64,000 bases of DNA from contig NZ_BLPF01000001.1 in NCBI RefSeq assembly GCF_011764425.1, positions 5,075,001 through 5,139,000 on the forward strand, read 5' to 3'. The position numbers were made by a program, and so were the translations under genes. Below are positions 13,125 to 64,000 of this stretch, one piece after another. The first letter of the stretch is position 1. The number at the start of each line of letters is the position of its first letter. Source of the stretch: Phytohabitans houttuyneae (GTDB lineage Bacteria > Actinomycetota > Actinomycetes > Mycobacteriales > Micromonosporaceae). The notes under the pieces are model-generated. The model was not told where the DNA came from and made no database searches. It worked only from the letters and a program-made list of their open reading frames with translations.

Positions 13125-13219
13125 AATCCAACCCAACCCAGACGCGAGCTACCGCGACGCCCGCGGTGGTCCGGACCGTTGCTCCCGCGGCCTCACCCTC
13201 CGCGGTCGCCCAGCTCACC
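13125..13219 (+). repeat. R1 interspersed repeat, copy A
   Basis: An element of ~95 nt with landmarks CTACCGCGACG, GGTCCGGACCGTTGCTCCC, GCGGCCTCACCCTCCGCGG and CAGCTCACC. Closely similar copies lie at 22233 and 63345 in the same orientation, and at 22968, 48884 and 63966 inverted. All sit at the 3' ends of genes. Confidence 0.75.
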
Positions 13220-13432
13220 CCGCTCCCGCAGATCTTGGAGACTTACCGTTCTCGACTTCGGAGTTGGGATTACTTCCGTGCGACAGCTTCCGGTGTCCTC
13301 CCAGCTCACGGCCTCCGCGCCGCAGTAGCCGGCTTTACGGTCGTGCTTCTGCAGATCTTCCGAGGCGGGAGTGCGCCAGTTCGGCACCGTCGTCGCGGTC
13401 TGTGACTGTCGATCAGTGCAGGCGGTGTGAAC

Positions 13433-22235: not shown

Positions 22236-22330
22236 GATCCAACCCAAACAGACGAGGGCTACCGCGACGTCCGCCGTGGTCCGGACCGTCGCTCCCGCGG
22301 CCTCACCCTCCGCGGTGGTCCACCTCACCC
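22233..22330 (+). repeat. R1 interspersed repeat, copy B
   Basis: Starts GATCCAACCCAAACAGACG, then CTACCGCGACG, GGTCCGGACCGTCGCTCCC, GCGGCCTCACCCTCCGCGG. It is followed by ~270 nt with nothing recognised, then R2 copy 2, ~225 nt more, and the inverted R1 copy F. The whole 22212-23181 gap between convergent genes contains only these repeats. Confidence 0.75.
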
Positions 22331-22596
22331 CAACAGCTCGGCTCCCGCACCAACGCCCCGTGGACGACCTGTTCCAGGATCTGCAAGCAAGGGGTGTCGC
22401 GCCACACGTCCGTGACCCGAGCGACGGCCGGCCGTCCACCGTCACAGACCTACCAAACCCAGCAGCCCACGCCCGCGCTGCGGCCCCGGCATCGACAGTC
22501 ACGCACCGCGACGCCGAGTCCGCCCATGATGCGCTGCCGTCGTGGAGGGCTCTACTACCGTCAGTGACCATCCGTTGAACGCAAGCGGCGCCGCAG

Positions 22597-22967: not shown

Positions 22968-23117
22968 GGTGAGCTGGGCGGCCGCGGAGGGTGAGGCCGC
23001 GGGAACGCACCCCACGAAAACGCTCCGCTGCGCTCCACGTTTCCCCGGGGGCCCCGCGCAACGGTCCGGACCACGACGGACGTCGCGGTAGCCCGGATCT
23101 GCTTCGGGTTGGATCTT
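22968..23117 (-). repeat. R1 repeat copy F, inverted, with 53-nt insert
   Basis: The reverse of copies A and B (GGTGAGCTGGGCG, GGAGGGTGAGGCCGCGGGA ... GCAACGGTCCGGACCACG, GGTAGCCCGGATCTG). A 53-nt segment (23005-23057), rich in short inverted repeats, interrupts the element between GCGGGA and GCAACGG. Confidence 0.65.
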
Positions 23118-23181
23118 CTGAACGGCTACCAGGGTCGCACCCCACGCGCGCCACCTCGACGCCGAAGGTCTGGATCTTCCG

Positions 23182-31175: not shown

Positions 31176-31241
31176 CGGTTGATCAGGGAGTTGGCGGGCG
31201 TGCCGGCCGGCGTGTCCATGCACGAAGTCCCTGATCAACCG
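31176..31241 (+). repeat. Palindrome-ended element P1, intergenic copy
   Basis: Arms CGGTTGATCAGGGA (31176-31189) and TCCCTGATCAACCG (31228-31241) are perfect inverted repeats. The 62-nt core 31178-31239 matches a copy inside cofGH (33979-34040, opposite strand) at 53 of 62 positions by my count. It lies after the acyl-CoA dehydrogenase stop. Confidence 0.8.
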
Positions 31242-32884: not shown

Positions 32885-35395
32885 CTACCGCGGCGCGTAC
32901 GCCGTGGTGCGCTCGCGCGCAGGCCGGCCGGCCAGCGCGGCTATCGAGCGGAGCTGTTCGACGGTGCGCGCCGAGCCGTTGGCCGATCCCGCCATTCGCG
33001 AAATCGTCTCTTCCATCAACGTGCCACCGAGATCATTGCAGCCGCCCTTGAGCATTGCCGCGGTGCCCTCGTCGCCGAGCTTCACCCACGAGCACTGGAT
33101 GTTGGAGATCCGTCCGTGCAGCAGGATCCGCGCCATCGCGTGTACGACGCGGTTTTCCCTCCACGTCGGGCCGGGGCGGGCGATGCCGGCGAGGTAGATC
33201 GGCGCGTTCGTGTGCACGAACGGCAGTGCCACGAACTCGGTGAAGCCGCCGGTGCGGTCCTGGATGTCGGCCAGCACGCGGAAGTGGCCGAGCCAGTGGC
33301 GGGGGTGGTCGACGTGGCCGTACATCATCGTGGAGCTGGACCGGATGCCGAGCTCGTGCGCCGTCGAGACCACCTCGACCCAGGTGGCGGCCGGCAGCTT
33401 GCCCTTGGTCAGCACCCAGCGCACGTCGTCGTCGAGGATCTCGGCCGCGGTGCCGGGGATCGTGTCCAGCCCGGCTTCGCGCAGTGAGGTCAGCCACTCG
33501 CGGATGGACATGCCCGCCTTGCTCGCGGCCGTGACGATCTCCATCGGGGAGAACGCGTGCACGTGCATCCGCGGCACCCGCTCCTTGACCGCGCGCACAA
33601 TGTCGGCGTACGCGGTGACGGGCAGCTTCGGGTCGATGCCACCCTGCATGCACACCTCGGTCGCGCCGGCCCGCCACGCCTCCTCGGCCCGGTCGGCGAC
33701 CTGGTCAACGGAGAGCCGGTACGCGTCGGCGTCCCGCTCGCGCTGGGCGAACGCGCAGAAGCGGCAGCCCACGTAGCAGACGTTGGAGAAGTTGATGTTG
33801 CGGTTGACCACGTACGTCACGTCGTCGCCGACCGCCTCCCGCCGCAGGTTATCGGCGATCCCGCAAAGCTCCTCCAGCGCCGCCCCGTCGGCCTCGAACA
33901 GCGCCATGGCCGCGCCCTCGTGCCGCGCCTCGAGCAGCGCGGCGGGGTCGCTCCCCGCCAGCCGCAGCCCCTCCCGCAGTTGATCAGGGAGTTCGTGGTG
34001 CGACACGCCGGCCGCCACGCCCACCGAGTCCCTGATCAACGCCCAGTCGCCGTAGACGGAGTCGAAGTCACCGCGGCGGTCGTCGGTGCGGCCTTCGGTG
34101 TCGATGTCGGCGTGGAGGTTGATGCGGCCGGTCGACACGGTGTCGTCGGGCTCCTGCCAGGGGAGGCCGGACAGCTTCGCGTCCGGGTTGGCCAGGCCGC
34201 TGTCCAGGGCAAGAGCGGTTACGTGGGGCAGCACGCGGGGGTCGAGCCAGGGGTCGCCGCGCGTCACGTACTCGGGGTAGACGGCCAGCCGCTCGCGCAT
34301 CGTGAAGCCGGCGGCGGCGGTGTGGCGGGCCAGCTCCTCGATCTGCGGCCAGGGGCGCTCCGGGCTGACGTGGTCGGGGGTCACCGGCGAGACGCCGCCC
34401 CAGTCGTCGATGCCGGCCCGCAGCAGCAGGTCGTACTCGCCGGCGATCAGATTGGGCGGGGCCTGGATGCGGGCGCGCGGGCCGAGCAGGATCCGGGCGA
34501 CCGCGACGGTGGCGGCCAGGTCGTGCAGCTCGGCGTCGGGCATGCCGCGCATCGCGGTGTCCGGCTTGGCGCGGAAGTTCTGCACGATGACTTCCTGGAT
34601 GTGCCCGTACTGCCGGGTCACCCGCCGGATGGCGAAAAGCGAGTCGGCCCGCTCGGCCAGCGTCTCGCCGATGCCGATCAGGATGCCGGTGGTGAACGGC
34701 ACGCCAACCCGGCCGGCGTCTTCCAGCACCCGGAGCCGGACCGCGGGCTCCTTGTCCGGCGAGCCGTAGTGCGGGCCGCCCGGCTCGCTCCACAGCCGCG
34801 TGGCCGTGGTCTCCAGCATCATGCCCATGCTCGCCGCGACCGGCTTGAGGCGCTGCAGGTCGGCCCAGGAGAGCACGCCGGGGTTGAGGTGCGGCAGCAG
34901 GCCGGTCTCCTCCAGCACCGCGATGGCACTGGCGCGTACATAGTCCAGAGTGGAGTCGTAGCCCCGCTCGTGCAGCCAGTCGCGCGCCGCCGGCCAGCGC
35001 TCCTCGGGCCGGTCACCCAGCGTGAAGAGCGCTTCCTTGCAGCCGTGCGCGGCCCCGTCGCGGGCGATCTGGAGCACCTCGTCCCGCTCCAGGAAGGCCG
35101 CCGGCAGCCGGTGCGGCACGGTGGCGAACGTGCAGTAGTGGCACCGGTCGCGGCACAGGCGGGTGAGCGGGATGAAGACGTTCTTGGAGAAGGTGACCAC
35201 GCCCGGCCGGCCCGCGTCACGCAGCCCGGCGTCGCGCACGCCCCCGGCGATGCGCAGGAGCTGGTCGAGGGGCTCGCCGCGGGCGGTCAGCAGCGTGGCG
35301 GCCTCGTCGACGTCGAGCGCCCGCCCTTCGGCGGCCCGGTGCAGCGCGCGCCGGAGGCTGGCCTCGGTGGGCCGAGCTTCGTAGTGATCAGCCAC
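32885..35395 (-). CDS. fbiC: 7,8-didemethyl-8-hydroxy-5-deazariboflavin (FO) synthase, CofG-CofH fusion
   Basis: An 836-residue two-domain radical-SAM enzyme that joins a tyrosine-derived unit to the flavin precursor, making FO, the F420 chromophore. Domain 1 (CofG) has its cluster motif CRDRCHYC near residue 80; domain 2 (CofH) has CYVGCRFC near residue 536. The GTG at 35395 ([14 protein letters not shown]) is preferred over the longer frame. The linker between domains contains an in-frame copy of palindromic element P1 (residues ~452-472). fbiA and fbiB lie ~1 kb away, so this is the F420 locus. Confidence 0.93.
33979..34040 (-). repeat. Palindrome-ended element P1 inside fbiC
   Basis: 62 nt with perfect 12-bp ends (GTTGATCAGGGA, 33979-33990; TCCCTGATCAAC, 34029-34040). 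It matches the intergenic copy at 31178 in reverse. It is in frame and encodes [20 protein letters not shown] in the linker between the two catalytic domains, where an insertion should be tolerated. Confidence 0.8.
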
Positions 35396-35420
35396 CCGAC
35401 GAAGCCTACGGCGACACGGC

Positions 35421-35446
35421 GTGGGGAGGGCAGTTGCCCTCCCCAC
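35421..35446 (-). terminator. Terminator hairpin
   Basis: A perfect 12-bp stem GTGGGGAGGGCA/TGCCCTCCCCAC with a 2-nt loop, 49 nt after the stop of the membrane protein gene. Confidence 0.7.
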
Positions 35447-38592: not shown

Positions 38593-40269
38593 GTGTCCAT
38601 CAGCTCGGGCCGCTCTAAGTTCCGATCGACGGTCATCGTGTTGGCAGTAGCGGTGCTCGCGGTCACCGGAACCGTAGCCGTGTTAACCAGGACCACTCCA
38701 GCGTTCGCCGCGGTCGGCGTCGAAGACGACGGTGCCGACTGCCCGGTGGCCAACAACCCCTCGACGTCCAGTGCGAGGCTGCCCGACCCGTTCCGAAAGA
38801 TTGACGGTAGTCGCGTAACCACGAAGGCCGATTGGCGGTGCCGCCGGGCCGAGATCCGGGAGATGGCCGAGCGGACGGTTTATGGACAGAAGCCGCCAAA
38901 GCCGGCAACTGTCACCGGCTCCGTCTCGACCAGCAGCATCACCGTCAACGTCTCCGACCAAGGCCGCAGCGCGAGCTTCTCGGCGAGCGTCCAGCTGCCG
39001 ACGACCGGCTCCGCGCCGTACCCCGCGGTCTTCGTCGTCGGCGGGTTCGGCGCCGACACCGCGACCATCCGCAGCTCCGGCGCGGCGGTCATCAGCTACG
39101 ACCCGCTCGCGGTCGGCCGGGAGGGCACCCCGCGCAACAACAAGCAGGGTGCGTTCTACAGCATCTACGGCGCGTCGAGCAGCACCGGCATCCTGATGGC
39201 CTGGGCCTGGGGCGTGAGCCGTCTGATCGACGTCATCGAGTCCTCCGGCAGCAGCATCTTCCGGGCCGACGGGCTGGGCGTCACGGGCTGCTCCCGGTAC
39301 GGCAAGGGCGCCTTCACGATCGGCGTCTTCGACCAGCGGATCGCGCTGACAATGCCGATCGAGTCCGGCAGCGGCGGCGCGCCCATCTTCCGCGGCATTC
39401 CGGGCGAGTCCGGCTCGCAGCCGCTGAGCAGTGCGTACAGCGAGCAGCCGTGGCTCGGTGACGCGTTCAGCTCGTACACCGGCAACCCCAACTCGCTGCC
39501 GGTGGACACCCACGAGATGGTCGGCATGATCGCGCCACGCGGCCTGCTGCTCATGGAAAACCCGCACATCGACTGGCTGGCCGCCCGCTCCGGCAGCAAC
39601 GCGGCTCTCGCCGGCGCCGAGATCTACAAGGCGCTCGGCGTGGGAGGCAACATCACGTACTGGTCCGACGTGTCGGACGGTACGCACTGCGCCAGCCGCA
39701 CCGAGTGGCGTACCCCGATCCAGCAGTTCATCCAGAAGTTCCTGCTGAAGACGGGCAGCGCGACCGGCACGATCCGGATCTCCAGCCGCAAGCAGGGCAA
39801 CCTCGCCGAGTGGCGGGACTGGACGACGCCGACCCTGTCGGACGGCCCGACCACGCCTCCGCCGACCACCCCGCCTCCGCCCACCACGCCTCCGCCGACC
39901 ACCCCGCCGCCCACGACACCTCCGCCGACGACCCCACCGCCCACCACGCCTCCGCCGACGACCCCGCCGCCGACCGGTAACGGCTGCACGGCGACCGTCT
40001 CGCTGAACCAGTGGACGGGTGGCTTCGTCGCCACGGTACGGGTGACGGCCGGCTCCGCCGCGATCAACGGCTGGACGGTCTCGGCGACGCTTCCGTCGGG
40101 TGCGAGCGTCACCAACCACTGGAACTCGAACCGCACCGGCACCAGCGGCGCGGTGCAGTTCACGAACGTCAGCTACAACGGCTCGATCGGTGCCGGACAG
40201 TCGACCGAGTTCGGCTTCCAAGGCACCGGCACGGGCACGGGCATGACCCCGACCTGCACCGCCAGGTAG
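38593..40269 (+). CDS. Secreted glucuronoyl esterase (CE15) with CBM2
   Basis: A 558-residue exported protein. Residues 1-~39 are a Sec signal (positive N-region, hydrophobic VIVLAVAVLAVTG, cleavage after PAFA). Residues ~50-410 match carbohydrate esterase family 15: the nucleophile motif GVTGCSRYGKGA, the acid in PIESGSGG and the His in SDGTHCASRTEW. CE15 enzymes cut lignin-glucuronoxylan esters. A (TTPPP)n linker follows, then a family 2 cellulose-binding module (CTATVSLNQWTGGFVATVRVTAG...). GTG 38593 with GGAAGGAGAG. It implies plant-biomass degradation. Confidence 0.88.
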   Translation: MSISSGRSKFRSTVIVLAVAVLAVTGTVAVLTRTTPAFAAVGVEDDGADCPVANNPSTSSARLPDPFRKIDGSRVTTKADWRCRRAEIREMAERTVYGQKPPKPATVTGSVSTSSITVNVSDQGRSASFSASVQLPTTGSAPYPAVFVVGGFGADTATIRSSGAAVISYDPLAVGREGTPRNNKQGAFYSIYGASSSTGILMAWAWGVSRLIDVIESSGSSIFRADGLGVTGCSRYGKGAFTIGVFDQRIALTMPIESGSGGAPIFRGIPGESGSQPLSSAYSEQPWLGDAFSSYTGNPNSLPVDTHEMVGMIAPRGLLLMENPHIDWLAARSGSNAALAGAEIYKALGVGGNITYWSDVSDGTHCASRTEWRTPIQQFIQKFLLKTGSATGTIRISSRKQGNLAEWRDWTTPTLSDGPTTPPPTTPPPPTTPPPTTPPPTTPPPTTPPPTTPPPTTPPPTGNGCTATVSLNQWTGGFVATVRVTAGSAAINGWTVSATLPSGASVTNHWNSNRTGTSGAVQFTNVSYNGSIGAGQSTEFGFQGTGTGTGMTPTCTAR

Positions 40270-48811: not shown

Positions 48812-48968
48812 ATCACCCAACGCGGACGGCAGGCCGCGGGTGCAACGGTCCGGACCACCGCGACGGCGAGGCGGCGGGAGCGGGGTGAGGTTGCCCACCG
48901 CGGAGGGTGAGGCCGCGGGAGCAACGGTCCGGACCACCGCGGACATCGCGGTAGCTCTGAAGACCCAA
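48812..48968 (-). repeat. R1 repeats D1 and D2, tandem and inverted
   Basis: Two R1 copies in inverted sense follow one another: D1 ~48812-48870 (incomplete, GGCCGCGGGTGCAACGGTCCGGACC) and D2 48884-48968 (GGAGGGTGAGGCCGCGGGA, GCAACGGTCCGGACCACCG, GGTAGCTC). They occupy the 278-nt gap between convergent genes; nothing else is seen there. Confidence 0.7.
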
Positions 48969-63344: not shown

Positions 63345-63441
63345 AAGATCCAAACCCGAACAGATCCGGGCTACCGCGGCGCCCGCCGTGGTCCGGACCG
63401 TTGCTCCCGCGGCCTCACCGTCCGCGGTCGCCCAGCTCACC
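63345..63441 (+). repeat. R1 interspersed repeat, copy C
   Basis: AAGATCCAAACCCG, CTACCGCGGCG, GGTCCGGACCGTTGCTCCC, GCGGCCTCACCGTCCGCGG, CAGCTCACC. It lies just downstream of speB and opposite to the truncated copy G at the window end; between them is a transposase fragment. Confidence 0.75.
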
Positions 63442-63489
63442 TCAAAAGCTCGCTCCCGCGGAAGGCGCGGTGGCACCTCAGCGCTCCGG

Positions 63490-63935: not shown

Positions 63936-63965
63936 ACGGCGGAGCCGTTCCGGCAAAGCCGGCAA

Positions 63966-64000
63966 CCGCGGTGGGTGAGGCCGCAGCACCAACGGTCCGG
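63966..64000 (-). repeat. R1 repeat copy G, truncated by window end
   Basis: CGCGGTGGGTGAGGCCGCAG, then CACCAACGGTCCGG: the start of an R1 element in inverted orientation relative to copy C. Confidence 0.6.

Follow-up and report, generated by a model that had tools for sequence, protein, structure and literature searches.

A dispersed, inserting palindromic element family of Phytohabitans with copies at gene 3' ends and in frame in fbiC

The gene fbiC of the soil actinomycete Phytohabitans houttuyneae, which encodes an enzyme of coenzyme F420 synthesis, contains, in frame, one copy of a palindromic family that is real, dispersed, and inserting. The best reading of our results is that this is a new REP/MITE-like family, retained at gene 3' ends and rarely captured in frame by proteins. 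More specifically, it is moderately probable that the fbiC segment is a copy of a non-autonomous element of this type, served by a recombinase or transposase supplied in trans, and that copies enter mainly at gene 3' ends and survive in frame on rare occasions. To our knowledge, proteins that carry palindromic elements in frame have been described chiefly from Rickettsiales. A high-copy actinomycete family that lies in frame in two conserved enzymes, has precise empty sites, and occurs in named species makes the question of its movement directly testable.

The window analyzed here is the whole 64,000-nt stretch of contig NZ_BLPF01000001.1 (positions 5,075,001 to 5,139,000). A sequence-only reading of this DNA had described two 62-nt copies with perfect 12-bp inverted ends, lying on opposite strands and sharing 53 of 62 bases. 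Both copies were recovered (Table 1), two matches were not reached in any of 100 dinucleotide-shuffled versions of the window (mean, 0), and a recount of identical bases, with the intergenic copy read on the forward strand and the fbiC copy on the reverse strand, agreed. Translated in frame 2, the intergenic copy gives LIRELAGVPAGVSMHEVPDQ and the fbiC copy a 20-residue peptide. The intergenic copy lies 24 nt from the end of a forward-strand gene (31153) and 61 nt from that of a reverse-strand gene (31301), both ends being codon-score calls. Within the window, there was no match to Rfam at gathering thresholds. The G-rich stretch next to the fbiC copy resembles the right flanks of the element at site C1:3488680 (see below); that it extends the element outward can only be inferred, because an outgroup fbiC carries a similar stretch.

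Table 1. Positions in the window of fbiC and of the two element copies with their parts
Feature	Position	Strand	Basis or context
fbiC (encoding a CofG-CofH fusion), carrier of the in-frame copy	32885..35446	-	ORF and domain search
62-nt palindromic copy	33979..34040	-	frame 2, FbiC residues 469-490
Terminal arm GTTGATCAGGGA (+ strand) of the fbiC copy	33979..33990		palindrome search
Terminal arm TCCCTGATCAAC (+ strand) of the fbiC copy	34029..34040		palindrome search
Possible G-rich outer extension, TGCGGGAGGGG in the fbiC reading	33968..33978	-	inferred only
Second 62-nt copy	31178..31239	+	intergenic, convergent genes

These copies are not alone in the P. houttuyneae genome (11.34 Mb, 5 contigs). 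The exact-ended pattern gave 77 matches, which correspond to 76 sites after removal of one nested double count, and a covariance model trained on 49 copies found at least 105 distinct sites, 76 of them with perfect ends; this is a lower bound, because the model search scored the best 150 candidates only. The copies at these 105 sites measure 62 nt in 92 cases, 60 to 63 nt in 11 others, and 50 nt in 2. Among 174 copies of 62 nt, 152 have an open frame 2 in both directions. At L056, L113, L130, and L102, tandem or truncated element ends adjoin full copies.

In the 853-residue FbiC, which comprises two radical-SAM stretches and CofH_C, the element runs in frame and stop-free between the two halves of the enzyme, in the CofG/CofH linker as first described. 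It encodes a segment of 22 residues whose first and last codons are shared with the flanks. An alignment showed this segment to be far from universal among fbiC orthologues: it is present in P. suffuscus, where one base pair of the ends is changed on both arms with pairing kept, and absent from P. flavus, P. maris, two further congeners (G003 and G004), and the other genera aligned. The notion of an insertion into fbiC has to be amended in one respect. The linker measures 25 residues in the two species that carry the element and 21 to 23 in the four congeners that do not (20 to 49 in the other genera measured), so that the net gain is only 2 to 4 residues although the element encodes about 21. 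The element therefore replaced linker sequence, and this near-zero gain counts against simple insertion. In the AlphaFold model of FbiC (14-sequence alignment; mean pLDDT, 71), residues 431 to 485 score below 50, as would be expected of a flexible linker. The fbiC frame appears interrupted shortly after the element in P. suffuscus (L139/L034) and also appears interrupted in the P. flavus assembly (L135/L033).

A second in-frame copy is found in the AtuA protein, between the AtuA domain (residues 1 to 310) and a ferredoxin-like domain (residues 363 to 444). Copies with perfect ends occupy the same place in P. maris and in P. flavus, where the frame around the element is interrupted, and the P. 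suffuscus copy is decayed, judged from the protein sequence. AlphaFold gave AtuA a mean pLDDT of 54, and this poor model was set aside. The third in-gene copy is located C-terminal of the domain of a solute-binding protein.

The comparison of filled and empty sites shows that the family inserts. At C1:3488680, three congeners (G003, G004, and P. suffuscus) are precisely empty, the ends of the two convergent genes abutting there; P. houttuyneae, P. flavus, and P. maris have about 80 nt extra, namely the element plus short C-rich and G-rich flanks, and the forward-strand gene now stops in the element's TGA. According to an alignment read by hand, C1:1365369 is empty in P. maris and P. flavus, whereas P. 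houttuyneae has about 93 nt extra there, with the element in the middle of the insert. The empty alleles of both sites lack TGATCA, and thus the element ends arrived with the insert; for the same reason, the idea that TTGATCA is a target sequence that insertion duplicates can be dismissed. No target-site duplication is visible at either site, where the junctions have diverged. Insertion into pre-existing hairpins was rejected, since pairing the two flanks of a site with each other gave no more complementarity than pairing them with flanks from other sites.

At C1:901353, P. flavus, P. maris, and G003 have a copy, P. suffuscus has a decayed one, and G004 has an unrelated perfect hairpin in the orthologous gap. 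Eight of 22 further P. flavus copies had flanks matching fetched P. houttuyneae loci, of which five are filled in both genomes, two are filled in P. flavus only, and one holds other DNA in P. houttuyneae. L082 and L200 represent two different sites, each occupied in one species only. For 12 of 13 further P. suffuscus copies, no counterpart was present among the fetched loci, and the region of P. suffuscus copy L142 is 74% similar to C2:1980952, a weak match. The presence patterns conflict with each other: P. houttuyneae shares the fbiC copy with P. suffuscus and the C1:3488680 copy with P. flavus and P. maris.

To describe where the copies sit, gene context was taken from a home-made codon-score gene caller, without annotation. 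By these calls, 89 of the 105 sites lie between two genes (48 convergent, 36 tandem, and 5 divergent), 10 are at a gene edge and run into a predicted gene end, 3 are inside a gene, and 3 were unassigned. In 34 of 36 tandem gaps, the copy is separated by a shorter distance from the stop of the upstream gene than from the start of the next gene (medians, 15 versus 102.5 nt). Among 134 measured 3' ends of genes, 79 come within 25 nt of a copy, and for 22, distributed over 20 sites, the stop codon is the TGA of the terminal TTGATCA; nine further gene-edge products finish in an element-encoded VDQG...P tail. Element copies explain otherwise odd C-terminal tails and linkers of predicted proteins.

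The ends of the element are far more constant than its core. Over 17 orthologous pairs of equal length, 6 of 408 end positions differ versus 165 of 646 core positions (24 end and 38 core bases per element). These pairs are 19 rows minus two duplicate atuA rows, five rows of unequal length having been left out, and they are not all independent, several representing the same locus in three species. Compensating core indels in two pairs inflate the core count; without these pairs, 5 of 360 end and 122 of 570 core positions differ. The constraint on the ends is overstated by this comparison, because intact ends had served to retrieve most of the P. flavus and P. maris copies. At four loci where only the P. 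houttuyneae copy had been chosen by its ends (C1:901353, C1:3488680, fbiC, and atuA), the ends are perfect in 10 of 14 copies and show one or two changes in 2 more; the remaining 2, both from P. suffuscus, are decayed. Such conservation at shared sites points more to a selected host function than to mobile DNA left to decay. The core pairs of the hairpin show little covariation, and a raw tally of 21 end changes gave 8 wobble pairs and 13 mismatches. A transcribed hairpin as the sole object of selection was rejected on the basis of the weak core covariation and of wobble pairs without strand asymmetry.

How might the copies move? The element ends (core TTGATCA; GTTGATCAGGGA in Phytohabitans) could be recognition sites, read at the DNA level, for a DNA-binding recombinase or transposase that would act in trans to move the copies. 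These would enter mostly at gene 3' ends, sometimes taking over the stop codon—possible because TGA sits within TTGATCA—and would then be kept. A copy landing in frame in an interdomain linker that tolerates the extra peptide could survive as protein, because frame 2 is as a rule open in both directions. In fbiC, most of the former linker would have given way to the element, and atuA would represent a second in-frame survival. A Y1 transposase gene (Y1_Tnp, PF01797) was found in none of the six genus genomes, with a control search positive in 5 of 14 named genomes; RAYT/IS200 mobilization was rejected on this basis, so that the family is not a RAYT-driven REP. In the 1.6 Mb of fetched loci, we found no autonomous copy, cognate enzyme, or insertion sequence with matching ends, and unpaired element ends look like remnants or chance matches.

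The exact-ended pattern occurs in five of the six genus genomes (77, 49, 28, 22, 28, and 0 matches, the zero being G004), in 5 of 250 genomes of the family, each of them a Phytohabitans, and in 1 of 394 class genomes, P. houttuyneae itself. A scan of GTDB contigs matched 112 stretches; the 80 matches listed came from P. flavus, P. suffuscus, and P. maris and, in addition, from a single contig of Micromonospora deserti and a metagenome bin, neither of which has the Phytohabitans core. Viral contigs had no match to the exact-ended pattern. The loose pattern TTGATCA-N28-58-TGATCAA is present in 122 of 200 Micromonosporaceae genomes and 33 of 44 genera, many of these genomes having one to three matches only, which may be chance. 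The counts reach 132 in G446, 109 in G456, and 90 in G014, and the same pattern read backwards matched at most once in nearly every genome, a single genome giving 10 matches.

The inner arms of these TTGATCA-bounded palindromes differ among genera, and in some elements of another genus, they are not complementary, with the TTGATCA ends intact. Twenty copies from three other genera comprised 7 convergent, 11 tandem, 2 within a predicted gene, and 0 divergent. In most of seven G014 copies, the palindrome extends outward as AATTCGCG/CGCGAATT, in keeping with the roughly 80-nt insert observed in Phytohabitans. The TTGATCA-bounded palindromes across Micromonosporaceae may belong to one superfamily. 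It is tempting to speculate further, as a possibility short of probable, that this would be a superfamily of about 56- to 85-nt TTGATCA...TGATCAA elements with lineage-specific arms that have spread through the family, an undescribed non-Y1 enzyme recognizing their two ends and inserting them at gene 3' ends. If so, insertions would create new stops, space between abutting convergent genes, and sometimes rewritten interdomain linkers of the FbiC type. Contigs 1 to 3 of G446, from another genus, contain many GATCA-bounded palindromes of several arm types, six of them in the first 60 kb.

Literature searches brought up no description of the Phytohabitans family, and PMC3733652 had no match to the terms sought. 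REPs are short, high-copy, mostly extragenic palindromes of lineage-specific sequence (accessible part of PMC2817692, and general knowledge). The Phytohabitans element, with about 100 copies, shares these traits; it differs from REP/RAYT systems in its symmetric and highly conserved ends and in that no Y1_Tnp gene was found in the six genus genomes, its consensus and flanks contain no GTAG-type tag, and it is about twice as long as the REPs tabulated in the accessible part of PMC2817692. With MITEs such as RUP and Correia elements, it has in common 12-bp terminal inverted repeats, small size, lack of coding content, and empty sites in relatives; it differs from them in its ends, which stay conserved at shared sites, and no target-site duplication was seen at the two sites with diverged junctions, nor an insertion sequence with matching ends in the fetched loci. 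The likeness to the palindromic elements of Rickettsia (RPE) that the sequence-only reading had drawn holds in part. Hairpins with 12-bp inverted ends and in-frame copies in conserved proteins are shared with RPE and with the Wolbachia elements (WPE); the element has 62 nt where RPEs measure 105 to 146 nt in the accessible text of PMC2229807, and it is overwhelmingly extragenic and, with 3 of 105 sites within genes, not mainly a colonizer of protein genes.

Alternatively, the element could be a bidirectional terminator or mRNA 3'-end hairpin that selection keeps for the host, the translated fbiC and atuA copies being harmless. Like intrinsic bidirectional terminators, the hairpin soon follows the stops of convergent genes, the 3'-end and convergent bias recurs in the 20 copies from other genera, both window copies have folding z-scores of -3.8 to -5.2, G004 holds a different perfect hairpin at one orthologous gap, and the ends are conserved at shared sites. 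However, the same terminal sequence is kept at most sites, also within genes, and no U-tract follows the hairpin (T makes up 9 to 14% of the 20 nt beyond either end, both strands pooled). The fbiC and atuA copies of P. houttuyneae retain perfect ends where termination would be harmful, and single end transitions in tandem contexts form wobble pairs in the sense RNA in four of eight cases, as read from table rows. Together with the low core covariation, the non-complementary inner arms in another genus, and the gain of an element at C1:3488680, where the genes had no gap, this makes a terminator unlikely, if the most serious competitor to a mobile REP/MITE-like family. The Phytohabitans family is in any event a system for separating mobility from 3'-end function.

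Two other alternatives appear weaker still. By analogy with gyrase-binding BIMEs, the element might be bound by a chromosome-organizing or supercoiling protein at 3' ends where positive supercoils meet. Its symmetric, sequence-specific ends and convergent bias would suit this, as would the clustering of tolerated end changes at T3>C (8) and T6>C (7) among 39 changes in 193 copies, but within a single genus, the copy number varies between 0 (G004, exact ends) and 105 or more, which, with the lack of a candidate protein, renders it improbable. A strict RPE-type colonizer selected to spread within ORFs would account for the in-frame copies in fbiC and atuA, the open frame 2, and inverted ends of the same length as those in the accessible text of PMC2229807. 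Yet the location counts disfavor it, and the open frame may merely follow from stop-free arms and high G+C, so that we give this explanation very little credence.

Other repeats came to light as well. In the window, a dispersed repeat of about 100 to 120 nt occurs at 13131-13230, 22241-22340, and 63353-63452 and, inverted, at 23058-23150, 48874-48957, and 63939-64000; a repeat at L160:18370-18490, which matches dozens of places in the genus genomes, was taken for a member of the same group. Another repeat of about 60 nt (L155:12576-12636) is multicopy, and in P. flavus, its copies sometimes stand in tandem at intervals of about 81 nt. Finally, window positions 39814-39999 form a repetitive stretch of the CCGACCACGCCTCCG type with a spacing of 12 to 18 nt.
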